From contig JACZYW010000005.1 in NCBI GenBank assembly GCA_022570885.1, positions 1 to 33,650 of the forward strand: a DNA stretch of 33,650 nt, given 5' to 3'. This DNA comes from Chloroflexota bacterium (lineage in GTDB: Bacteria > Chloroflexota > Dehalococcoidia > DSTF01 > RBG-16-68-14). Below are positions 6,917 to 18,915 of the stretch, piece by piece. Under the pieces are notes generated by a model. The model saw only the letters and a program-made list of their open reading frames with translations, made no database searches and was not told the DNA's origin. The position numbers were made by a program, and so were the translations under genes. Position 1 is the stretch's first letter. Each line of letters begins with the position of its first letter.

Positions 6917-7288
6917 ATGGGAGCTCTCCGCATCGCCGTGGTGTTTTCTGAATCGCTCATGCTCGAAGGCTTGGCCGCCTTTCTCCGGGAAATGCAGGAC
7001 ATGGAGGTGACGAGTTTGGACCCTTCCCAACCTGATGCCGCCACTCGCCTCAGGCAATTGTGCCCGGAAGTGATCATCGTCGACGGCGAGGGCGTTGGTC
7101 AGTGGCCTGACCTTACCCTTCCCCAACTCCTGGTGGGCAATCCCGAAGCGAAGCTCATCGATGTGAACCGCCACATCAATCAGATAGCCGTCTACGAGCG
7201 GCACACGGTTCGCGTCGGCACAATCGATGACCTGCTGGCGACCTTTGGAACCCGTGATTCTGCTCGAGAAGGGGAGGTAGACGCATGA
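6917..7288 (+). CDS. Degenerate receiver-domain protein without output domain
   Basis: This ~123-residue protein has the outline of a NarL-type receiver: ALRIAVVFSESLMLEGLAAFLREM at the start and EVIIVDGEGVG at the beta3 position. The acidic pair that binds Mg in true receivers (DD in IADDH) is replaced by FSES, so phosphorylation is unlikely. There is no HTH afterwards. ATG 6917 was chosen over the longer ORF because it begins exactly at the receiver beta1 strand and follows GAGGGATCAAGG. It precedes the beta-propeller gene by 54 bp on the same strand, so it may act as a protein-binding regulator of this cluster. It could also be a decayed response regulator. Confidence 0.6.
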   Translation: MGALRIAVVFSESLMLEGLAAFLREMQDMEVTSLDPSQPDAATRLRQLCPEVIIVDGEGVGQWPDLTLPQLLVGNPEAKLIDVNRHINQIAVYERHTVRVGTIDDLLATFGTRDSAREGEVDA

Positions 7289-7342
7289 ATGGAACCTCGT
7301 GAATCGGAAGTATCCAACCGCTAGCAAGAAAGGAGCGTACAC

Positions 7343-8827
7343 ATGACGCCTATCAAGGCACTGAAAATGATCGGACTGGTGGCAGTTGTGGTGTCAATCA
7401 CACTCTTCGCCTTCGCCTGCGGCGGTGGCGACGACGACAATGGCGATTCCTCGGGGGACGCGGGCGTTCCCGACGCCGACATCCAGACCATCATTCAGGT
7501 GGGAGAGTTGCAGCCAGCCCCAGCCGGCGCCGAGCCGAGCGGCTGGGAGACGGAGTGGTCGCAGCTCCTCGGGATAAACCTGATCGCGCAGCTTGACTCC
7601 AGTGGACCCGACGCATGGGACCCCGGAGAACATCCCCTCGTCTACGTTAGCGCGGAGGGACCAGGATACGGATCAGCCGCGTTCGGCGGCGAGTTCCTCA
7701 GCAGCAGACAGATAGGCCCTGGCGTCGCGATCATCGACGCAAACACCCACGAGGCGGTTGCCACGACGCAGTACCTGGTCGATGGGGTTGACACGTACGC
7801 CGAGAACCACGGCATCGCGGTTTCAGCGGACGGGAAGTGGATCTACACGCAGGGGGTCAACCTCGAATCTGACCTGCGCGGCAACGCTGTGCTGCACATC
7901 ATCAATGCCCGCACCCTGAAGATCGACAAGATCATCCGGAGTCGGGTCCACCACGTGAAGGTGATCCACAACTCCTTCACGGGCAAGGATCTCGTGCTCG
8001 TGGAGGGCTGGGGCACATTCTTCGCAATGGATCCCTCGGATGACAATCGCATCGTCGGCGCCGTGGATCCAGCGGACCTTCAAGGGTCCGGTTACCTCGC
8101 CTTCAGCGACCCGAGCGGCCAGTGGCTTTTCATCAGTGTTCGAACGGGCTTCCGGGAGTCAGATGGTGGCATCGCGGTGGTGAGTTTGGACGACTGGAAA
8201 GTTAAGGCCCGGATCAACACGCAAGACGGCAGCCCCATCTGGATCGCTTTCGAGGCTGATGGCGATACGGCGTACGTCAGCGACGGCCATGAAAGCAAGA
8301 TCGCGAAGATCGACATCAGCGCGGAGGACCCCTCGGAGTGGCGTGTCGTTGGCATGGCCAACGCCGGGGCGATCGGACCGTACGGCCTCACGTTCAACTG
8401 GGATGACACGATGATCTTCGCCATGGGCAAGGGTGAGGCAAGTCACAACCAGGGCAAGACCGTGGGATTCACCAGCCCGGATCTGTTCGTTGAGCCCGAC
8501 CAGTATCGAGGCTGGGGAACGGTCCTCGGGCAGATCGTCTCCAACTGTCTGCGCCAGGACCATGCCATTGTCCATCCGGACCCCGATCTGAACGAGATGT
8601 GGATCAGCTGCAACAGCAGCTTTGACAACGTCATCGTGGACATGGGCACCCAGACAGTGATAGCGACCGTTCCACAGCCGAACGGCGGGAGCTCGCACAA
8701 CGGCTCCTTTGTGCGATACACGCCAGACTGGGCAGGCGAGCTGCTGTCAGACCAGAACGGCATGCATGGTAGCGCACTTGACGTGAAGCTGGACATCATC
8801 GCAAAGGCGGTGAACTCAGGCCAGTAG
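7343..8827 (+). CDS. Beta-propeller lipoprotein with conserved His motifs
   Basis: AAAGGAG lies 8 nt before ATG. A signal peptide ends in the lipobox LFAFAC-GGG, so the 494-residue protein is anchored outside the cytoplasmic membrane after an acidic linker. The rest reads as a seven- or eight-blade propeller (e.g. GIAVSADGKWIYTQ, AFEADGDTAYVSDG). Histidines recur at blade starts: ENHGIAVS, RVHHVKVIHN, RQDHAIVH, SSHNGSF and NGMHGSA. That pattern recalls metal-binding propellers such as nitrous oxide reductase or cytochrome cd1-like proteins, but no diagnostic NosZ or haem motif is present. The gene after it encodes a cupredoxin, so copper binding or electron exchange with it is a reasonable inference. 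The substrate is unknown. Confidence 0.7.
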   Translation: MTPIKALKMIGLVAVVVSITLFAFACGGGDDDNGDSSGDAGVPDADIQTIIQVGELQPAPAGAEPSGWETEWSQLLGINLIAQLDSSGPDAWDPGEHPLVYVSAEGPGYGSAAFGGEFLSSRQIGPGVAIIDANTHEAVATTQYLVDGVDTYAENHGIAVSADGKWIYTQGVNLESDLRGNAVLHIINARTLKIDKIIRSRVHHVKVIHNSFTGKDLVLVEGWGTFFAMDPSDDNRIVGAVDPADLQGSGYLAFSDPSGQWLFISVRTGFRESDGGIAVVSLDDWKVKARINTQDGSPIWIAFEADGDTAYVSDGHESKIAKIDISAEDPSEWRVVGMANAGAIGPYGLTFNWDDTMIFAMGKGEASHNQGKTVGFTSPDLFVEPDQYRGWGTVLGQIVSNCLRQDHAIVHPDPDLNEMWISCNSSFDNVIVDMGTQTVIATVPQPNGGSSHNGSFVRYTPDWAGELLSDQNGMHGSALDVKLDIIAKAVNSGQ

Positions 8828-8832
8828 CAGCG

Positions 8833-8878
8833 CGGTGCAGTGCCCGACCGCGGTTAAATGCGGCCGGGCACTGCACCG
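8833..8878 (+). promoter_or_regulatory. Long intergenic hairpin between propeller and cupredoxin genes
   Basis: CGGTGCAGTGCCCG pairs perfectly with CGGGCACTGCACCG (14 bp). Inside, after one mismatch, CCGC/GCGG enclose the loop GGTTAAAT. It starts 5 bp after the propeller stop. There is no T-run, so an mRNA-stabilising or processing hairpin, or a partial terminator that lowers downstream expression, fits better than a full terminator. Confidence 0.6.
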
Positions 8879-8908
8879 GTGGAGAGACGATGTGAGAGGA
8901 GAACAGTG

Positions 8909-9418
8909 ATGGCAGGCACCCGCGCAGAAGGATCAGGCATCGCTCTTGTTGCAATACTCGTCGCAATCGTCGCTCTGGTCGCGGCGGCATGCGGCGGATC
9001 AACGTCTGGCGGTTCCGCCCCGGCACCGACATCGCCCGCAGCCGACACACCCATGAACGATTCTCCAACGGCGGCGGACCCGATGGACGGTCCTGCCTCG
9101 TCGAATCCTTCTAGGATAGAGATTGAGGCGAGGGACAATATTTTCAGCGTCCAGACGGCTCCAGGAGTTCCTGGAACGATCGAGGCCTCTGCCAACACAG
9201 ACTTCACAGTGAGATTGGTTAACGAAGGTGTTCTCCCACACAACATCGCCTTCTTCACGAAGGAAGGGGGCGCCCTCCTCGCCGAAGGTGCAAACGGCCC
9301 CATCCTCCTGGAAGGAGAGGCGAGGTCGATCACCTTCAAGACGCCTGCTGCCGGTACGTACTTCTTCCTGTGCACGGTGCATCCACTTGAGATGATCGGT
9401 GAGTTTGTCGTCAAATAG
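8909..9418 (+). CDS. Cupredoxin lipoprotein (plastocyanin-like, type 1 copper)
   Basis: The ATG follows AGAGGAGA. A signal peptide with lipobox VAAAC-GGS and a Ser/Pro/Thr-rich linker (to ~residue 65) precede a ~100-residue cupredoxin domain. The type 1 copper ligands are all visible: His in LPHNIAFF, and Cys, His and Met in FLCTVHPLEMIGEF at the C-terminus. The protein should be a membrane-tethered one-electron carrier. It follows the His-containing propeller and precedes YtkA/FixH-like and CcdA-type genes, all on the same strand, which supports a shared envelope redox role. The 130 bp after it contain no gene. Confidence 0.85.
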   Translation: MAGTRAEGSGIALVAILVAIVALVAAACGGSTSGGSAPAPTSPAADTPMNDSPTAADPMDGPASSNPSRIEIEARDNIFSVQTAPGVPGTIEASANTDFTVRLVNEGVLPHNIAFFTKEGGALLAEGANGPILLEGEARSITFKTPAAGTYFFLCTVHPLEMIGEFVVK

Positions 9419-9548
9419 CGCGCCCAGATGAATTCGAGATGCTAAAGGGTAGCCAAGTGCAGAATGCTGTTGCGTCCGGCGAAGCCCTCGAAGCGATCGC
9501 GGCGTGTATTGACCTACTCGCTGAAGATCATAGCTCCGACGACGGGCA

Positions 9549-10151
9549 ATGAATCCGATAGCCCTCCGGGTCGTTGCGGCTACAGCGGTTGCCGCGGCAA
9601 TTCTCGCTGCCGCGTGCGGGAGCGCGCCTGCCGCACCATCGGACGCCCCCGAAACCACATCTCCCTCGTCCGAGACGCCGTCCGCACAGGTCGTGACGGA
9701 CACGCCGGCGAACTCCAGTCAGCCAACCGCGGGCCCGGGGGCTGATCAGGCCTACGTCCCAGAGCGCAGCATAGACACTGAGGAGAAGCGCCTGAATGTG
9801 ACGCTCAATGGCGAGACGGTATACATCCGGAACGGAAGTCAGGTGTTCCTTGGCGATGGCTTGGCTGTTGAGATCTTCGTCGACCCCTATCCCCCTTCGA
9901 CCCTGCGCACGTGGGTGGATCTCTATCTGACGCGGGATGGTGAGCCAGTCACAGACGCCAGTATGGGGATCGAGTACGACATGCTGGCAATGGTCCATGG
10001 CCCCTTCTCGGGCGTGGCGGAGAAGCTCGGAGGCGGCCACTACCTCTTCACGCTGGACTACATCATGTTTGGTCCCTGGGACCAGGCGGTCACCATCCGG
10101 ATCGGGCTGGAGCGGATCAGATTTCCGATCGTCTTGGTCGCGTACCCCTGA
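9549..10151 (+). CDS. YtkA-like domain lipoprotein
   Basis: This 200-residue protein has a signal peptide and lipobox ILAAAC-GSA, then a low-complexity Ser/Thr/Pro linker to ~residue 70. A beta-rich C-terminal domain of the YtkA/FixH-like kind follows (VDLYLTRDGEPVTDASMGIE, then MVHGPFSG and GHYLFTLDYIMFGPWDQAVT). Such domains occur in copper-handling and cytochrome-oxidase-assembly loci, though their chemistry is poorly defined. The next gene starts 13 bp downstream and encodes a second FixH-like domain. Family assignment is by pattern only. Confidence 0.55.
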   Translation: MNPIALRVVAATAVAAAILAAACGSAPAAPSDAPETTSPSSETPSAQVVTDTPANSSQPTAGPGADQAYVPERSIDTEEKRLNVTLNGETVYIRNGSQVFLGDGLAVEIFVDPYPPSTLRTWVDLYLTRDGEPVTDASMGIEYDMLAMVHGPFSGVAEKLGGGHYLFTLDYIMFGPWDQAVTIRIGLERIRFPIVLVAYP

Positions 10152-10164
10152 GGGGGCGTGAGAC

Positions 10165-11208
10165 ATGCCGGCCTGGATGCGGCGTACCCGAAGAGTCGCG
10201 ATTGTCATCACCGTCGCGATGGTGGCGCTGCTCCTGTGGCAGACGGTCGCGGCTCAGCCGGCATCGGCTCACGGCAAGGACCTCGACATCGCCGTCACGC
10301 CGCTGATTCCAGACCCGGGCCAACCGCTCCTGCGGCTCTATCGCGTCCATGTCGTGTACGCGAATGATCTCGAACCCGTGGAGGGCGCGACCGTCGTGCT
10401 TACGGCACGGCGCGAAGATGGCACGTCCGCTTTTCCGGCGTTGGAGCTGACAGAGGTGGACAACGGCGATGGTCTCTATGTTGGGGAGGCCGTCTTCGCC
10501 CGCTTCGGCGTCTGGGAGATGCAATTGAGCGTACAGGCGGCTGTCGGTCAGGGCGAAGGCAGCGTGACGTTCACCGACGATATCCGCCCAGGAGCGCTCG
10601 GCCCGGACCAAGAAGCTGCCCTGCGCGCGGAGGCTGAACGGGTCATTAAGCTCCAGCTTTCCTTCGGGTTCGGCTGGTGGCCCGACGTTGTCAATATTGC
10701 GATGCGGATCCTCCATTCCATGGCGGGCCTTGCCTATTTCGTCGTCACCGGCCTGGCGTTTAGCCTGGCGTGGCTCGGGATAACCTCGCGTCGCCTAGAC
10801 CTCCCGCGCCTGCTCGATCGCTTGTTCCTTCCGGCCGCGGCCACCAGCCTCGTGCTGCTTCTGGGCGCCGGACTCTACAGTGCTGCCTTTGATGCGCCGA
10901 TCACATTCCCGGGGATCTACGATATCTCAACCATGCGACGGATTCCGTATGGTGAAGCCTATCTCATAGCGTTTTTCGTCAAGGTCGCCTTATTCGTCAT
11001 GCTCGCGGTGCTGGCTGTCCGAATCAGCCGGACGCTCAGAGGATGGAACGCGAGCGACTCGACGCGTGCGAACGGCACGGTTGTCGCTAGGCTCAGGCGA
11101 GAGACGCTCTTGAGCACGGTAGTTGGCCTGGCCGTGGTGGCCGATGTCGCAGTCGTCATTTACTTGCACTACGTCAGCCACCTGGGTGTCTTTCTCCCCG
11201 ACGCATAG
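10165..11208 (+). CDS. FixH/CopC-like extracellular domain fused to CopD-like membrane part
   Basis: This is a 347-residue protein whose ATG follows GAGGGGGCG. An N-terminal signal/anchor (IVITVAMVALLLWQTVA) ends at ASAHGKDLDI, leaving a His near the mature N-terminus as in CopC-type proteins. Residues ~35-150 form an Ig-like domain of the FixH/YtkA type (VVYANDLEPVEGATVVLTAR). Four membrane segments follow (e.g. VTGLAFSLAWLGI, AATSLVLLLGAGLY, VALFVMLAVLAVRI, VVGLAVVADVAVVIYLHY). A His pair near the end (YLHYVSHLG) could bind metal. The fold suggests copper transport or insertion across the membrane, in line with the cupredoxin gene upstream. Confidence 0.5.
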   Translation: MPAWMRRTRRVAIVITVAMVALLLWQTVAAQPASAHGKDLDIAVTPLIPDPGQPLLRLYRVHVVYANDLEPVEGATVVLTARREDGTSAFPALELTEVDNGDGLYVGEAVFARFGVWEMQLSVQAAVGQGEGSVTFTDDIRPGALGPDQEAALRAEAERVIKLQLSFGFGWWPDVVNIAMRILHSMAGLAYFVVTGLAFSLAWLGITSRRLDLPRLLDRLFLPAAATSLVLLLGAGLYSAAFDAPITFPGIYDISTMRRIPYGEAYLIAFFVKVALFVMLAVLAVRISRTLRGWNASDSTRANGTVVARLRRETLLSTVVGLAVVADVAVVIYLHYVSHLGVFLPDA

Positions 11209-11515
11209 TCATCGGCATCCCTGGGGCAACGGCCAGAACATCAGCTCTCCAGCGCCTTCCCGCTCACAAGGCCGGCCACCGTGTCCCGCGAATCACATGG
11301 CAGCGCGCAAGGACTCGAGGCTCGCGTCATCCTACCCTGGGCGACATAGGCTGCGCTGCGGCCCTACCAACTTCGGTAGGTAGAAGCCCGCATCGAGACT
11401 ACTCGATTTCGCGCCAAGGCCCCCAAGGATCGGTGTTGTGCGATCCAGACGAACGGGCGATGATTGGAGTACGTGATTCCGAGTGGAGAGCGTTCTGCGG
11501 GAGTGCGTGGAAGCG
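11209..11515. other. Intergenic region, 307 bp
   Basis: No gene is seen. It contains a small hairpin, CCTACC-AACTTC-GGTAGG (11363-11380), without a T-run. A longer start for the next ORF (ATG 11483) falls inside it but has no clear ribosome binding site. Confidence 0.6.
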
Positions 11516-12130
11516 ATGCTGCGATTCATCATCATCGGTCTCCTGGTAAGCGCCGCGTTCGGTCTCAGCGGTTGTGGTGGCAATGCGGGAGACGGTGCCG
11601 CCGGCGCAAGCACTGCGTCTCTGGATACGGGAGCGGCCACTGGAGCTGAGAACGCGATTGGGGATCTCTCAGTGCGCGATTTGATTCCGTTGCTGACGCG
11701 TCGTGGGGTTGGGCCCGGTGAGTCTGGCATCGACCTCACGTACGCGCCACAGGTTTTCTTTGAGGTCACCGGCCTTGCGCCGCCAGCCGAGATCGGTTCG
11801 CGACCAACCCTAGCCTTCATCCTGGCGGAAACCATCCATGAAGGGGACCTCGTGAGCGAACCACCAGCCGTGTTTCTGGAGCTGGAAGGTGGTGAACGCG
11901 TGCCTCCGTACAGCGCGCTGGTCACGGCGGAAGACCCGCATCATCGGACGGTTCGCCTATTATTTCCACAGCCAGACGGGTGGCTGATATCATCGCGCGC
12001 GACCGGTGGCGGAGACACGATGAGGCTTGTGGTTCCACGGCACGACGGGACTGTCTCTGCCGGGCGTATCTTCGAATGGCAGCTGCCTATCGATTTCGGA
12101 GGCGGCGCCGACGAAAGCGATAGTGAGTGA
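11516..12130 (+). CDS. Lipoprotein, paralogue of the CcdA-fused extracytoplasmic domain
   Basis: ATG 11516 is preferred over 11483 because it begins directly with the signal sequence MLRFIIIGLLVSAAFG and lipobox LSGC-GGN, and GGAAG precedes it. The 204-residue protein has a ~140-residue mature domain. That domain aligns by eye with residues ~60-240 of the CcdA-type protein two genes downstream: HEGDLVSEPP versus HEGELPEPEL, VPPYSALV versus LPPAQTYSV, DPHHRTVRLLF versus SEHHQTVALQF, and WQLPIDF versus WSLPLRY. The conserved His-His may bind metal. I do not know a named family. It is separated by 4 bp from the next gene. Confidence 0.6.
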   Translation: MLRFIIIGLLVSAAFGLSGCGGNAGDGAAGASTASLDTGAATGAENAIGDLSVRDLIPLLTRRGVGPGESGIDLTYAPQVFFEVTGLAPPAEIGSRPTLAFILAETIHEGDLVSEPPAVFLELEGGERVPPYSALVTAEDPHHRTVRLLFPQPDGWLISSRATGGGDTMRLVVPRHDGTVSAGRIFEWQLPIDFGGGADESDSE

Positions 12131-12134
12131 CGCT

Positions 12135-12347
12135 ATGAAGTCCATCTCCCTACGACTGGCGCTCATCCTATCCCTCATCACCGCAGCGCAGATACTCTCG
12201 TTCCGCACGGCACTGGCGCACACGGGAGAAGATGCGAGCGCGGGGCACATGATCGTTGAATTTGGTCTCTGGGGCTTCGGCGTCGCCGGCGTGCTTATGA
12301 CAATCGTGGGGGTCTTCTGGATTCGGAACAAGGTGAGGCCACGGTGA
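12135..12347 (+). CDS. Small membrane protein (70 aa), translationally coupled to ccdA-like gene
   Basis: The 70 residues comprise a signal peptide ending near RTALAHTGED, a short His-containing segment (AHTGEDASAGHM) and one C-terminal membrane helix (LWGFGVAGVLMTIVGVFW) with a basic tail. The start is 4 bp after the preceding stop and the stop overlaps the GTG of the CcdA-type gene (GTGA), so the three are an operon. The function is unknown. The exposed N-terminal amine next to a His could coordinate copper, but this is speculative. Confidence 0.6.
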   Translation: MKSISLRLALILSLITAAQILSFRTALAHTGEDASAGHMIVEFGLWGFGVAGVLMTIVGVFWIRNKVRPR

Positions 12348-13813
12348 GCCGCGCTACTACCGCGACTACCGGATCTGTTGCGGTCGGGATCGGTCGTCTC
12401 GGGTTCGGGCGACCTTCCAGCACGTTCGTCGTCTTTGCGGTGGCTGTCGGCGTGATGCTAGGCGTGTGGCTGCTTTTAGCGTTGCTGTACAGCGGCATCG
12501 GAGGCGGTCGCAATGTTGTGGAAGCGCGCGGCGTGATCTCAGCGGTCACGAGCACCCGCGCGAGTTCGGGAAATTTTGAGGTACAAGGCATTCTCGCCAC
12601 CGCTGAGTACTTCAGGGTCACGGACCGCAGCGATGAGTTCTTCAGTCTAGCACCCGAGGAAAACCTTGCGACGCTCGCGACCAGTCCGCAGGCCTTTGAT
12701 GTCTTCGATGAGAGTGCAGATGCCCTCGCTGTGGATCCGGAGCGGACGTTGCCCGTGCTGCTGGTGGTTGACGTTCACGAGGGTGAACTCCCGGAGCCTG
12801 AACTCTGGGTCCCCGCTGTGTCGATGAGTGTCAACGGGGTGCTGCTGCCACCGGCCCAGACCTACAGTGTGGCATTCCGATCCGAACACCACCAGACGGT
12901 GGCGCTGCAGTTCGCGCGTCATGATGCCGAAGGGAATCTCTTTCTCGATGACAGTGATGGAACGCTGAGCCTGACAGTTCCCAACATTGAATCCGGAAGC
13001 GGTGAGCTGACGGTTGATTGGTCATTGCCTCTTAGATATCCGGCAGCCGAGGCTGGCGGCGTGTTCCCCGGTAGCGTTGCCACACTAGGCAGCGTCCTCG
13101 CTGTGATGGCCGGCTTGCTCGTCATATTCTCGCCATGCGTCGTGCACATGACAGCATACTTTCTCCCAGTCATTACCGGCCTTGGGATGCAAGAGATTAG
13201 GGCCCGGAAAGATGATGTTCGTTTCCGCGCGCACGTGGCACTGTCGGGCGTTGCCTTTGTCACCGGATTCGTATTGCTGTACACAGCGTTCGGCGTGGCG
13301 GCAGGATTTGCGGGGCAGTTCTTCTCGAACACAGCCAAGCTGGAGCCCTACATCTTTCCACTCCGGATCATCACCGGCACAGTCGTGATCTATCTGGCGA
13401 TTCAGACACTCGGCTTGTTCCGCCTTCCCTTCATCGTTTCGCTGCGATTGCCCGGCCGGCCGCACGAGGTGCGAAGTCCGCGGCAAGGATACGTCGCCGC
13501 CGCGATCGCCGGCATGAGCATCTCCGTCGGTTGCTTGGCCTGTGTGGGCGGGACGCTGCTGGCGTCATTACTGATCTACGCGGGCGCGTCGAGCTCGCCG
13601 GTTGTGGGTGGACTGACGCTGTTCCTCTTCTCCATCGGGATGAGCATCCCGTTTCTTCTTGTAGCATTCGCCTTTGAGAAGATGGTGCCGCAGATTAACA
13701 AAGTGTGGCCCTTGCTCCGCTATTCATCGGCGGTCGCCGGCGCCGTCATGCTGGTAGTAGGGCTGCTGATCCTCAGTGGGAATGATTCCGTCTTCGAGCG
13801 GCTCGTGGTGTAA
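12344..13813 (+). CDS. CcdA/DsbD-type transmembrane thiol transporter with N-terminal envelope domain
   Basis: This 489-residue protein has one membrane anchor (~28-50) followed by an extracytoplasmic domain (~55-245) homologous to the lipoprotein at 11516. A six-helix CcdA/DsbD membrane domain follows. Its two redox cysteine sites appear as VIFSPCVVHMTAYFLP at the first helix and SVGCLACVGGTLLASLL at the fourth; the second site has two Cys. Such proteins pass electrons from cytoplasmic thioredoxin to envelope thiols, as needed for cytochrome c or copper-site assembly. The extra domain is unusual and would be the likely electron receiver or docking site. It starts at GTG, overlapping the previous stop. 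Confidence 0.75.
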   Translation: MSRATTATTGSVAVGIGRLGFGRPSSTFVVFAVAVGVMLGVWLLLALLYSGIGGGRNVVEARGVISAVTSTRASSGNFEVQGILATAEYFRVTDRSDEFFSLAPEENLATLATSPQAFDVFDESADALAVDPERTLPVLLVVDVHEGELPEPELWVPAVSMSVNGVLLPPAQTYSVAFRSEHHQTVALQFARHDAEGNLFLDDSDGTLSLTVPNIESGSGELTVDWSLPLRYPAAEAGGVFPGSVATLGSVLAVMAGLLVIFSPCVVHMTAYFLPVITGLGMQEIRARKDDVRFRAHVALSGVAFVTGFVLLYTAFGVAAGFAGQFFSNTAKLEPYIFPLRIITGTVVIYLAIQTLGLFRLPFIVSLRLPGRPHEVRSPRQGYVAAAIAGMSISVGCLACVGGTLLASLLIYAGASSSPVVGGLTLFLFSIGMSIPFLLVAFAFEKMVPQINKVWPLLRYSSAVAGAVMLVVGLLILSGNDSVFERLVV

Positions 13814-13896
13814 ACGATTTCTCGCCGAGTGCGACGGGCCTGTGCGGCGGTCACGGTTTTCGTGTCGCCCCCCAGCGATGATCGGTGTCAGTACCC

Positions 13897-14571
13897 ATGA
13901 AGAGCCTGCCCAAGGTTGTTGCGTTCCTCGGCATCATCGCGGTGGTCAGCGCGGTCGGAGTCTTCATGTTGCGCCAGGCGGGGTATCTCTCGGAAAGGGC
14001 GACCATGGACGCTGGTGGAATGGCGGCCCGCGATCTGCCCATCGTCACTATCCTCCCGAAGGACGCCATCCCAGCCATCTTCGAGCCCGAGTTCCTTCCG
14101 GCGACAGACGGCGGGGCCCAACTTCACGACGACGACCTCGTCCTCGGCGTCAGCATCAACGGTGACGCGCGCGCTTACGGAGTGGCCTATCTCAGCGGTC
14201 ACGAGATCGTCAACGACACCGTGGGAGGCCGGCCGATTGCGGTCACCTGGTGACCGGTCTGCTTTTCGGGCATCGTGTATGCCCGCGAAGTCCAGGGGAC
14301 AGTCCTCACATTCGGCGTATCCGGCAAGCTCATGATGAACGCCCTGGTCATGTACGACCGTGAGACCGACTCACTCTGGAGCCAGTACCTGAGCTCTGCT
14401 GTGGACGGCATCTACGCAGGGACTGATCTGGAAGTCGTGTCCGCGTCGCTCGTCACCTGGAGCACTTGGTTGGAACGCCACCCCGATACCCTCGTCCTGG
14501 ATCAGGGCGGCCGCCGAATCGATCCCTGCGACTCCTACTACGGCGGGCGCGGGGCCTGCGAGTGGGATTGA
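13897..14571 (+). CDS. DUF3179 protein with in-frame TGA at its CPxC motif (candidate selenoprotein)
   Basis: Read through one TGA (14251-14253), this is a 224-residue DUF3179 protein. A signal anchor (VVAFLGIIAVVSAVGVFML) is followed by LVLGVSINGDARAYGVAYLS, HEIVNDTVGGRPIAVTW, [TGA], PVCFSGIVYAR, LTFGVSGKLMMNALVMYDRE and HPDTLVLD, all characteristic. In the family the motif after VTY/VTW is CPLC. Here the first Cys codon is TGA and the second Cys is kept (U-P-V-C), the geometry of many redox selenoproteins. Both halves keep the same frame and good conservation. A plain nonsense mutation is the alternative, since other island genes are broken. The stop is followed after 3 bp by the next ATG. 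GTG 13885 is an alternative start. Confidence 0.65.
14251..14290 (+). promoter_or_regulatory. Candidate bacterial SECIS hairpin after the UGA
   Basis: After TGA and 13 nt, CGGGCAT (14267-14273) and ATGCCCG (14279-14285) form a perfect 7-bp stem with loop CGTGT. CTT/AAG (14262-14264/14288-14290) extends it below a 2x2 internal loop. The apical loop begins 20 nt after the UGA and has G at its second position, matching the known spacing and loop preference of bacterial SECIS elements. The hairpin also lies within coding sequence, so chance is possible. Confidence 0.45.
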
Positions 14572-14574
14572 GGC

Positions 14575-15458
14575 ATGAACGAACCAGATCAGGGTGCGGG
14601 CGCGAACAAGGCGAAGGCCCCTCGTCTTCCGCGGTGTGATGGGATCCTAAGGCTGGGGCTTCTTAGCCTTGTGCTATGTGCCGTGCTGGCAACTGCCTGT
14701 AACTCTTCTGACGTGTCGTCACCGGCCGTAAGGCCTGTCGCCGACATCCTCGCCGGACAGATCGAGATCGCCGACCTCACAGCCAGCAGCGCCACAGTGC
14801 GGGTCGAGACGAACATAGACGTGGTCTGCTCTGTCGTGTACGGGCCAGACCAGAGCTACGGGAGCCAGAGCACAGACCCAGACATGGGTGGACTCCCACA
14901 CCGGGATCACCGGGCTCCCCTGCGAGGCTTGCAGCCCGACGCCGTCTACCACTATCGGCTCCAGGGCACTGGTCCCGACGGCACGCTCTATGTGAGCGAC
15001 GATCTGGCCTTCCGCACGCTGGCCACGGAGGCCCAAACGGAAGAACATGGCCGGAACGTGGCCAGCCTGGCCGCCGGCGCCCGGCTCGTAGAGGTTAGCT
15101 CAACCTTCGGCAACTCCGGCACGTGGGCCGCCAGCAACGCTCTTGATGGGGACCCACGAACGGAAGGTCATCCGCCGGCGACGGTGACGCTGCCTCAATC
15201 ACAATCGCTCTAGCCAGACCTTACGACCTGACCGCTATCGGCTTCTGGACCCGTACTATGGGCAGCACTGGCCAGATAACGAGCTTTGAAGTGGTCACGG
15301 AAGACGGTACGAAACTCGGCCCCTTTGATCTCCCTGACGCAAGCCGCATGCATATATTCCCCGTCTCTGTCCGGGCTGAGCGTCTGAGCTTCGAGGTGCT
15401 GGACTCTTCGGGTGGCAACACAGGAGCAGTGGAGATAGCCGCGTTCACCAGGGAGTAG
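14575..15458 (+). pseudogene. FN3/discoidin-like lipoprotein with one frameshift
   Basis: The first frame encodes a lipoprotein (LSLVLCAVLATAC-NSS) with a fibronectin-III-like domain (IEIADLTASSATVRVETN, LRGLQPDAVYHYRL). It then enters an F5/8 type C-like domain (SSTFGNSGTWAASNALDGDP). At ~15160-15168 the frame changes by one base and the domain continues (SAGDGDAASITIALARPYDL, IGFWTRTMGSTGQI) to VEIAAFTRE and a stop at 15458. The combined length would be ~294 residues. The domains suggest an exported protein binding surfaces or carbohydrate. Its ATG is 3 bp after the DUF3179 stop, so it belongs to the same transcript. The indel may be real decay or a base-call error. Confidence 0.6.
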
Positions 15459-15928: not shown

Positions 15929-16588
15929 TCATTGCTCCTCCTGGTTAAGGCTGACGAGGCCGGTTCGCAGGGCATAGGCAACAGCTTCGGCGCGGTTGCG
16001 CAGGTGGAGCTTGCTGAGGATGTTTTTCATGTGGTAGCTCACGGTGTTATGCGAAATGACGAGTGCTGCGGCTATCTCCTTGTTCGTGGCACCGCTGACC
16101 ACTTGCTGGAGCACCTCTCGCTCACGTTCCGTTAGCTCAGACTCAGGGCCATCGGTGGTGGGCGCTTCCCTGTCCTGGCGGGCGAACTCGGCCAGGATCT
16201 TAGCGGCCATGCCGGAAGAAAGGGGCGCGTCGCCCTCAGCAATGCTCTGGAGCATCCTGCCGAACTCCTCGCCGGAAGTATTCTTCAGGATGTAGCCCGC
16301 AGCGCCGCTCTTGATGGCCTCGAAAAGATCTTCTTCATCGGCTGAGACGGTCACCATGACGATCTTCGTCTCCGGCATCTCCGTCTTGATGAGCCGGGTA
16401 GCCTCCAGGCCGCTGCATTTCGGCATCCTGATGTCCATGAGGATCAAGTCCGGTCGGAGCTTTCGTGCTTGCTCCAGCGCTTCCCAGCCATCGCTGGCCT
16501 GGCCCGCAACCTCCATGCCCCAGGCGCGCAAGAGGCTGGCGACGCCGTCGCGAAACAGCGCGTGGTCATCGGCGATCAGGACGTTCAT
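15929..16588 (-). CDS. NarL/FixJ-family response regulator
   Basis: This is a 219-residue two-domain regulator. The receiver has the acidic pair in LIADDHALF, the phospho-acceptor Asp in LILMDIRMP (~residue 52), Thr/Ser in MVTVSAD and Lys in GYILKNT. The LuxR HTH at ~150-215 has LTEREREVLQQVVSGATNKE and NTVSYHMKNILSKLHLRNRA. It starts with ATG overlapping the stop of the kinase gene (ATGA), so the pair is translationally coupled. Its targets are not visible, but it faces the copper/thiol gene train and a paralogous HTH remnant lies at 6535. Confidence 0.92.
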   Translation of the reverse strand: MNVLIADDHALFRDGVASLLRAWGMEVAGQASDGWEALEQARKLRPDLILMDIRMPKCSGLEATRLIKTEMPETKIVMVTVSADEEDLFEAIKSGAAGYILKNTSGEEFGRMLQSIAEGDAPLSSGMAAKILAEFARQDREAPTTDGPESELTEREREVLQQVVSGATNKEIAAALVISHNTVSYHMKNILSKLHLRNRAEAVAYALRTGLVSLNQEEQ

Positions 16589-18498
16589 GCCTGCGTCCGT
16601 CCATGGCGCCGGCTCCCGGTAAGAGGCACCATCACGGTGACGTTGGTGCCGTTATAGGGCTGAGCATCAATGTGGAAGGTGCCGCCGATGGCCTCCGCAC
16701 GCTCTCGCATCGTCCGCAGGCCGAAACGAGGCCACTCGCCGCGTCTCGAGACCGACGGATCGAAGCCCTGACCATTGTCCTCGACCGTCACTATCAGTTG
16801 ATCATCCTTGGCCGCTAGCCTCACCCAGATCTCGCTGGCCTTGGCATGCTTTCTTACGTTGCTCAGCGCTTCCTGGATAATGCGTATGACCTGGATTTCC
16901 GTGGCCACGCTCAGCGAAAGGTCTCGTACCTCGTCATCCGACTGACACCGGACCCGCAGGCCGCTCTGTCGACTGAAATGCTGCAAGTACTCATTTAGTC
17001 CAGCCACGAATCCGGCCTCGGTCTGCTTGGTACTCAGCAGGCCTAGTATTGCTTCCCTGACATCCGCGTAGACTTCGCGGGCGGCTTCCTCCAACTCGGC
17101 GAGCAGTTGTTGCGCTTCCAGGCTCTTGCCCTCTTTGAGGAGCTTCCTGACGGCGAAAGCCTTGGTATTGACATACCCGAGAACCTGAGAAACCCCGTCA
17201 TGCATCTCGTGAGCGATCCGTTCGCGCTCCTCTAGGACAGCCATAGCTTGAACCTTTTCGTATAGCTGGGCATTCTTGATGGCTACTCCCATTTGGTTGG
17301 CCATTGATTCCAGCAACTGCTGGTCGCGAGTCGCTAGGGTTATAGGCTCCCTGGAAGCAACGCAAAGGACTCCAACGACTTTCCCCTCGGACCTTAGAGG
17401 CAGGGACGCAAGGACGCGAAGCGCTTCGTTCCCGAGTGGTTCTGGGCGGTACATTGGCTCCCCGGATTCAGCTACTCTCCCCACCACGCCCTCGCCTAGT
17501 TTGAGGATTTCGGCGCTCTGGGGAGCGTCGGCCTCGGTGGTGCGGCGAGCAGCCAGCCCCAGAGTTTCGGAGCGTTCATCCAGAAGCCAGATCTCGCCCG
17601 AATCGGCCTCGCTCACATCAATGATCGCGGCGAGAGCTATGTCCAGCACCTGGTCGAGTTCCAGTGTGCTGCCGGCGGCGGCCGACAGTTCGTGGAGAGT
17701 TGCTAAGTCTCGGTTCCGCCGTACCAGCTCCTGGAACAACGTCGACTTCTCGACAGCGATACCTATCTGACTGGCGACCCGCTCTAGCAGCTGGACTTCG
17801 TCGGCACCGAACTCCTTTTCTCGCTCGCTTGCCAGGCCTAGTATCCCAACCGTCTTCCCTCCGGACCGGAGCGGTACACTTATCAACGAGCGCAGCCCTT
17901 CCCGGTGGGCTAGCTCTTGGACGCGGGGGTCGGCAAAAGCGTCCTTCACGACGATGGTTCGTCCGGTCCGCACCACCTCAGTCCCCAGCGGCTCCTCCCC
18001 CAGCTTGCTCCGCGCGGCTTGAGCGACCACGGCAGCGGACAGGCCGCGATGAGCTGTGAGGAAGAGCTCCTCTCTGCTCTCGTCAAGCAGGCAGATGAGG
18101 CCAGCAGACACGCCAGTCCTGTCTAGCACTACATCCAGGCCCACGTTCAAGGTTTCCTCCAAGCTTTCCAAGTTGTCCAAGGCGGTTGTTACCGCGTTAA
18201 TGGCGGAGAGCTCTCGGTTCTTCCGGAGAATCTGCCCTTGTAGCCTGTCCACAATGTCAAACACGGCCTGAGAGAAGAAGAACGCGGCGACGGCGGCGAC
18301 GGCGGTGATGGAGCTGAACGCTATGGCCGCATGGATGTAGTTGGGCAAAATAACGAGGCCAATGAGATTAAGAGCTGCAACAGCCGCGACGGGGAGGGCG
18401 ACAGTCACCCACCGGAGACGCGAAACGGCCCTGCCCGCCTCTGCTGAAGGAGCAGGCTCGACGACTGGCGACCGTGCATTGAAGCGCTCAGCTCGCAT
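16585..18498 (-). CDS. GAF-domain sensor histidine kinase (NarX/LiaS type, HisKA_3)
   Basis: Two membrane helices (~residues 27-80, from VTVALPVAAVAAL to AAVAAFFFSQAVF) lead to two GAF domains (~100-250 and ~265-410). A HisKA_3 domain follows with the phospho-His in ERIAHEMHDGVSQ (~residue 435). The HATPase_c domain has the N-box IIQEALSNVRKHA and G1 box VEDNGQGFD. The lack of a large extracellular loop points to cytoplasmic sensing by the GAF domains, perhaps of redox or small ligands. The ORF track starts at GTG 18525. ATG 18498 is preferred because GGAGGTGAAGGG lies between the two. It overlaps its response regulator by 4 bp. Confidence 0.9.
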   Translation of the reverse strand: MRAERFNARSPVVEPAPSAEAGRAVSRLRWVTVALPVAAVAALNLIGLVILPNYIHAAIAFSSITAVAAVAAFFFSQAVFDIVDRLQGQILRKNRELSAINAVTTALDNLESLEETLNVGLDVVLDRTGVSAGLICLLDESREELFLTAHRGLSAAVVAQAARSKLGEEPLGTEVVRTGRTIVVKDAFADPRVQELAHREGLRSLISVPLRSGGKTVGILGLASEREKEFGADEVQLLERVASQIGIAVEKSTLFQELVRRNRDLATLHELSAAAGSTLELDQVLDIALAAIIDVSEADSGEIWLLDERSETLGLAARRTTEADAPQSAEILKLGEGVVGRVAESGEPMYRPEPLGNEALRVLASLPLRSEGKVVGVLCVASREPITLATRDQQLLESMANQMGVAIKNAQLYEKVQAMAVLEERERIAHEMHDGVSQVLGYVNTKAFAVRKLLKEGKSLEAQQLLAELEEAAREVYADVREAILGLLSTKQTEAGFVAGLNEYLQHFSRQSGLRVRCQSDDEVRDLSLSVATEIQVIRIIQEALSNVRKHAKASEIWVRLAAKDDQLIVTVEDNGQGFDPSVSRRGEWPRFGLRTMRERAEAIGGTFHIDAQPYNGTNVTVMVPLTGSRRHGRTQA

Positions 18499-18915
18499 TC
18501 CCCTGGACGTCCCTTCACCTCCCACAAGCTGGGCGGCGCAGAACTAGTAGCTGAACACCCGACTCCGACATATTTGTACGATACCTCTTACACACCTACT
18601 GTCACAAGCGCTCATATGGTCAATGTGATCCCCTTTACGTTTGCATGACCTACCTCCAAGAAGGGGCCGAATGGCCCTACGCACACGGGTCCGTTTGTCA
18701 CATCGAAGGTTGCGCATGGGAAGGGGCTCGACCCCCTCCGTTTTGGGGAAGCACGGGCGGATCATGGCGGCAGGAATCTGACGTTGACCACGCGAAGCCC
18801 CTGCTACCTGGTGACCCCGGTGTGGGGTGGCAAAACCCCATCCGTATCTGGAAGGTTGACCTGCTGAGCTGTGTGGGCCAGCCTTGAGGTAGCATCTCCT
18901 CTCGGAGGTCTGGCC
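18499..18915. other. Intergenic region upstream of the histidine kinase, ~415 bp
   Basis: It must hold the kinase promoter (minus strand). A weak pair, TTGTGA and TATCGT, is seen around 18575-18610. Short G/C-rich inverted repeats (GGGG-CTCGA-CCCC near 18725, GGGGT...ACCCC near 18824) precede the transposase remnant. No gene is supported. Confidence 0.4.

Follow-up and report, generated by a model that had tools for sequence, protein, structure and literature searches.

A histidine-rich beta-propeller lipoprotein and its recurring gene company in Chloroflexota: a candidate copper-dependent oxidoreductase

The stretch of DNA described here, which will be called the window, is 33,650 nucleotides long and comes from contig JACZYW010000005.1 of a Chloroflexota bacterium (assembly GCA_022570885.1; contig C107 of the 2.34 Mb draft genome). 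From position 6917 to about 15458 it carries a train of genes on the forward strand, among them the gene of a histidine-rich beta-propeller lipoprotein. The probable product of this locus is a metal-dependent oxidoreductase, most likely a copper enzyme, that is anchored by lipid in the periplasm; an electron carrier, proteins for metal loading and a regulator, all dedicated to it, would be encoded alongside. The best reading of the propeller is that it would work like thiocyanate dehydrogenase or N2O reductase, and the tests made place it in neither family. The core of the gene set is real, unnamed and patchily distributed, and it recurs across several phyla.

The propeller (7343-8827, +) has a lipobox-like N-terminus and reaches no Pfam or NCBIfam family cut-off. 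An AlphaFold2 model of it was built from 25 relatives (mean predicted local distance difference test score, pLDDT, 85; predicted template-modelling score, pTM, 0.86). In the model the innermost strands begin at about residues 99, 158, 204, 249, 298, 346, 405 and 454, and this strand count predicts about eight blades. Five histidines (H156, H203, H204, H407 and H452) are invariant in all 31 sequences compared, as are D230, K363 and D406, and H97 is kept in 21 of the 31. All five invariant histidines, and also H97, lie no more than two residues from the start of an innermost strand in the model. For the five, the chance of such a coincidence is about 8e-6, with the two-residue limit chosen after the fact. 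The histidine-bearing strand starts are predicted to fall on the consecutive blades 7, 8, 1, 2 and 3. The first-pass annotation had proposed an exported metalloenzyme and had named histidines scattered over the surface as an outcome that would refute it; in the model the invariant histidines map to adjacent innermost strands, and this arrangement fits, as expected, a metal site in the channel. A propeller with several conserved inner-strand histidines is one mark of the copper beta-propeller oxidoreductases.

A second mark, a dedicated electron carrier, is found both as fusions and as neighbours. In eight loci (L047, L048, L049, L050, L051, L058, L065 and L115) a cytochrome c with a CxxCH motif is fused to the C-terminus of the propeller, and in five (L063, L064, L112, L113 and L114) a type 1 cupredoxin is fused there. 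Most of the remaining propeller loci have a separate cytochrome c or cupredoxin gene adjoining, as in the window. Because two kinds of one-electron carrier swap as fusions on the same protein, these sequences give strong evidence that the propeller donates or accepts electrons. At L048 7744-8316, L058 10426-11010 and L059 2740-4755, cupredoxin-like proteins of another family, which share a conserved CxxxxCP segment and HH pairs, are fused to the propeller set or stand beside it.

Some of these loci hold a hint of where the electrons go. Of 294 class genomes, seven carry a CydA-like gene, and six of the seven are propeller genomes (P about 6e-8). At L055, L057, L059 and L060 its product, a bd-type subunit, is accompanied by a membrane cytochrome c; the module beside the propeller at these loci also contains a Usp/PCP_red protein and a small membrane protein. 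Compared with Escherichia coli CydA, the protein keeps H19, E107, H186 and M393, and both E99 and the Q-loop (quinol loop) are absent, which suggests an enzyme linked to cytochrome c rather than to quinol. Some loci thus pair a bd-type subunit that lacks the quinol loop with a membrane cytochrome c, and for this reason the reaction is slightly more likely to run as the oxidation of a small substrate whose electrons go to an oxidase.

The carrier in the window would be the type 1 cupredoxin lipoprotein (HN...CTVHPxEM) encoded at 8909-9418 (+) within the open reading frame 8858-9418, which matches Cupredoxin_1 at 2e-6 and amicyanin at 1e-8 (Pfam/NCBIfam). A strong hairpin of two 19-nt arms, 95% complementary, occupies 8833-8878 (no strand assigned), directly after the propeller stop. 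As it overlaps the first ATG of the cupredoxin frame, translation more likely starts at the ATG at 8909. Possibly, the hairpin tunes the expression of the propeller relative to that of the cupredoxin.

The genes that follow encode likely metal-handling and thiol proteins. The YtkA-like lipoprotein (9549-10151, +; Pfam/NCBIfam, 2e-6), a proposed copper chaperone, has conserved M145, M148 and H150 and near-conserved H164 and M173. The CopD-like membrane protein (10165-11208, +; Pfam/NCBIfam) has a YtkA-like N-terminal part, an invariant AHGK motif, whose histidine may become N-terminal after signal cleavage, and conserved membrane histidines H184, H335 and H339. The CcdA-type thiol transporter (12344-13813, +) matches DsbD_TM (PF02683) at 4e-20 and has the conserved cysteine pair expected of CcdA/DsbD thiol transporters: C265 is kept in 13 of 13 sequences, and C397 and C400 in 12, the other being truncated before them. 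The extra domain that had been noticed on this transporter is indeed there. It is an N-terminal domain bearing H145, H182 and H183, and it is homologous to the whole of a free lipoprotein encoded at 11483-12130 (+), in which H119 and H154 (PHHR motif) are invariant. This new domain corresponds to no Pfam or NCBIfam family, and the lipoprotein reaches no cut-off in either; a fold search returned no confident match, only Ig-like sandwiches and weak CrdA and YcnJ CopC-like neighbours. Because of the type 1 cupredoxin, the conserved methionines and histidines of the YtkA-like and CopD-like proteins and the invariant histidines of the new domain, copper would be the likeliest metal.

Regulatory genes complete the locus. 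A lone receiver-like protein without an output domain (6917-7288, +) precedes the propeller; it has no Pfam match, is below the NCBIfam cut-offs as well, and matches the MadR receiver weakly. Facing the train, as had been noted, are a NarL-type response regulator (15929-16588, -) and a NarX/NarQ-type histidine kinase with two GAF domains (16585-18525, -). This pair proved to be more than a neighbour, being among the most consistent partners of the propeller.

By combining these observations, it is possible to sketch how the system might work. H97, H156, H203, H204, H407 and H452, contributed by adjacent blades, would form a metal site at the mouth of the propeller channel together with the conserved D406 and K363. 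The propeller would trade electrons one at a time with its dedicated carrier, the type 1 cupredoxin here and a fused or neighbouring cytochrome c in relatives. The YtkA-like and CopD-like proteins would pass copper outside and across the membrane, and the CcdA-type transporter with its histidine domain, together with the free lipoprotein copy of that domain, might supply reductant, hold the metal during loading, or both. The NarX/NarL-type pair and the lone receiver-like protein would set expression. Of the exported metalloenzyme with an electron donor and assembly factors that had first been proposed, the redox protein, its carrier and the set are borne out, whereas copper, the metal cluster, the catalysis and the roles of the accessory proteins are what we infer from them.

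Several points weigh against an oxidoreductase of this kind. H97 is replaced by glycine in 10 of the 31 sequences and H368 is variable, which makes any figure for the number of metal ions tentative. What sequence similarity there is to known copper propellers goes no further than generic propeller repeats. At the threshold used, the genome that contains the window yielded no CydA-like gene. A bolder form of the proposal is attractive, though we hold it only tentatively and think it rather less probable than not. It states that the protein represents a new class of copper propeller with about eight blades, and a histidine cluster unlike the CuZ or thiocyanate dehydrogenase site, and that it acts in the periplasm on some small inorganic or one-carbon compound in a reaction not yet described. 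The class would have a maturation pathway of its own, in which the fusion of the new histidine domain with CcdA links the reduction of thiols to the loading of copper.

The gene set, most of which lies in the window, is not confined to it. Whether it recurs was the other question left by the first-pass annotation, and it does so in many genomes. Among the 294 class genomes, 16 hold a relative of the propeller, every one from a different family, and in a sample of 400 it was met in five genomes from other classes of the phylum. Labelled records from further afield share 75% identity over the protein (Limnocylindrales), 68% (Caldilineaceae), 47% (Acidimicrobiaceae) and 40% (Arenicellaceae). The window propeller is 36-62% identical to relatives of its own class and 68-75% identical to records from other named groups, a higher identity that is suggestive of horizontal transfer of the propeller. 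Partners were counted by hand over the fetched neighbourhoods, many of them on short contigs. NarX and/or NarL occur in about 20 propeller loci, the CcdA protein and/or the new domain in about 19, a YtkA-like protein in about 12, the lone receiver-like protein in about nine and a CopD-like protein in six. Homologues of the receiver-like protein lie upstream of the propeller at L044, L053, L060, L061, L062, L063, L111 and L112, and CopD-like homologues are found at L043, L045, L052, L063 and L064. The new domain occurs in 14 of the 294 class genomes, 13 of which also hold the propeller (hypergeometric P about 5e-19). Loci from other classes (L111-L114) repeat the combination NarX-NarL-receiver-cupredoxin-propeller-CcdA-YtkA, whole or in part. 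Literature searches on YtkA with propeller and cupredoxin, and on thiocyanate dehydrogenase with NosZ, found no name for the set; the first-pass annotation, likewise, knew of none.

Two or three diverged propellers share a locus at L050, L053 and L111. This suggests duplicated enzymes with different substrates or partners.

These tandem propellers bear on a different explanation of the locus, in which the propeller is no enzyme but a protein of copper storage, copper resistance or envelope assembly, comparable to the maturation propeller NirF, and the genes form a copper homeostasis operon with the two-component pair as its sensor. The YtkA-like and CopD-like parts and the histidine-rich domains would suit copper handling, and NirF is among the weak structural neighbours. 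However, nearly all loci with enough flanking sequence have dedicated or fused cytochrome c or cupredoxin carriers, and diverged propellers in tandem are better suited to an oxidoreductase than to storage. The homeostasis explanation is judged improbable, at something like one chance among several.

About equally improbable is that the propeller is a thiocyanate-dehydrogenase-like enzyme oxidizing a small sulfur, nitrogen or carbon anion and handing the electrons on to a cytochrome c or a cupredoxin. In the cited descriptions thiocyanate dehydrogenase, itself a copper propeller, is partnered by a cytochrome c, and copCD and two-component genes lie near its gene, a gene company that resembles the window locus (PMC9456337, PMC5328954). 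A Foldseek search with the model returned generic propellers (YVTN, amine dehydrogenases, cd1 nitrite reductase and thiocyanate dehydrogenase), and profile searches agree. Among the 50 Foldseek matches listed, pmTcDH had the highest query template-modelling score (TMq, 0.51), and the divergent member at L115 matches thiocyanate dehydrogenase locally, at 2e-5, over two histidine-bearing blades. Yet this likeness is no better than that to several propellers that contain no copper, and in the L115 alignment one histidine is aligned and one is offset by one residue. The strand count gives about eight blades here as against seven in thiocyanate dehydrogenase, and no sulfur-oxidation genes were recognized among the window genes scanned. 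Clear sequence homology to thiocyanate dehydrogenase along the entire propeller was not found: the matches cover local repeats only, with E values of 5e-4 (profile) and 2e-5 (L115). A phmmer search of the PDB with the window propeller alone gave only chance matches in the N-terminal lipoprotein signal region.

It is very unlikely that the propeller is a distant lactonase-type N2O reductase (L-NosZ), or a NosZ-like reductase fed by the cupredoxin. The architecture of a histidine-rich propeller with a cupredoxin and the presence of a NarX/NarL-type regulator are what such an enzyme might have, and matches below the cut-off to the NCBIfam L-NosZ family were obtained for all 25 members scanned. 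Against the cut-off of 700 bits, though, the window propeller scores 11.6 bits and L065, which has the best E value of the 25, scores 67, and membership is rejected on this score. When circular permutation was tested with real NosZ, the signal did not exceed that of shuffled blade orders, and the seven CuZ histidines were not found in register (doubled-profile hhalign score 52.5; shuffled mean 47, standard deviation 9, up to 76). Nor was the CuA motif of NosZ (CxxxCxxxHxxM) found: the window cupredoxin has a single cysteine (CTVHP), and the fused carriers are of type 1 or carry a CxxCH haem motif. A phylum-level search for L-NosZ returned no genome over the cut-off, and the best matches examined were canonical NosZ with CuA.

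That the propeller, the cupredoxin and the other genes are unrelated neighbours is the least credible explanation of all and is refuted for the core set, since co-localization repeats in independent classes and phyla (with the P value given above for the new domain), even though several members belong to generic families and many contigs are short. It stands for the DUF3179 gene and perhaps for the small membrane protein.

The DUF3179 protein (13885-14571, +; Pfam/NCBIfam, 1e-58) had been listed as part of the set, and it occurs in none of the other propeller loci searched. It is truncated and covers about the first half of the family profile. Its gene contains one in-frame TGA (14251-14253), which gives UPVC at a site where the three full-length DUF3179 paralogues of the genome have CPLC. 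The genome encodes SelB (322 bits), a selenocysteine tRNA that runs off the end of a contig (49 bits, above the gathering score) and SelD, which lies on contig C232 (L123, genome G000), carries an in-frame TGA of its own and is probably itself a selenoprotein. The draft genome yielded no SelA, and a SECIS-like hairpin at the DUF3179 gene has a z score of only -0.85. In view of SelB, the tRNA, SelD and the CPLC of the paralogues, the TGA probably encodes selenocysteine, as had been suspected. A TGA at the first cysteine of CxxC, in a genome with selenocysteine machinery, is what is looked for in UxxC DUF3179 selenoproteins, which have already been listed (PMC9312934, PMC13188914). The protein is thus probably a genuine selenoprotein of a known type, and it is a local companion outside the recurring set.

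The remaining genes of the train are also local or occasional. The small membrane protein with a histidine-bearing N-terminus (12138-12347, +) has a homologue only at L043 among the searched propeller loci. The gene of the FN3-like/discoidin lipoprotein (14575-15458, +) is present as listed, with its reading frame broken near 15170; homologues intact in one frame lie near the propeller at L065 4623-5354 and L045 15584-16486, and the gene is an occasional companion of the set, frameshifted here. The remnant of a haem-binding domain placed after it was not recovered: between 5000 and 19000 there is no CxxCH motif and no haem-domain match. The other main reading frames of the train were all found on the forward strand near the positions first assigned to them, and Pfam and NCBIfam matches agree with the family names given then to the cupredoxin, YtkA-like, CopD-like, CcdA-type and DUF3179 proteins. 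A plasmid search gave no match.

The known copper propeller enzymes are few, and they run environmentally important reactions such as N2O reduction and thiocyanate oxidation. The present set, with carrier and maturation genes together, constitutes a complete and testable package. If the proposal is true, the set would also bring to light a new histidine domain attached to CcdA and a likely new copper-loading route outside the cell membrane.

Among known systems, propellers of the YVTN/YncE type, the hydrazine synthase beta subunit and NirF are similar to the window propeller in repeat sequence and fold, but none was shown here with the same invariant histidines or carrier fusions. The heavy chains of aromatic amine and methylamine dehydrogenases, which are Foldseek neighbours, also combine a propeller with a type 1 cupredoxin carrier (amicyanin or azurin). 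No tryptophan tryptophylquinone (TTQ) light chain or MauG, however, was recognized in the locus, and the conserved channel-side histidines point to a different type of site. CopC/CopD, the YcnJ copper uptake protein and the CcdA/DsbD thiol transporters are likely relatives of the accessory proteins, from which the window differs by the new histidine domain, without family or confident fold match, that is fused to CcdA. NosDFYL, known as accessory genes of nos clusters, were not recognized at the window locus. NosZ of clades I and II and L-NosZ share with the window a histidine-rich propeller, and NosZ carries copper in a cupredoxin domain; the window has neither a CuA site nor in-register similarity to the CuZ blades. 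Thiocyanate dehydrogenase, in the cited passages, is exported by the Tat pathway, has seven blades and is described with fccAB and ABC transporter genes, and the cluster description given there names no CcdA-type protein, YtkA-like protein or cupredoxin. Like the present set, it has an exported propeller that is partnered by a cytochrome c and has copCD and two-component genes close by, and the conserved channel-side histidines found here are a candidate counterpart of its trinuclear histidine copper site. Of the copper propeller enzymes, thiocyanate dehydrogenase has the gene surroundings that best match those of the set, with genes of the copCD-like, two-component and cytochrome c kinds.

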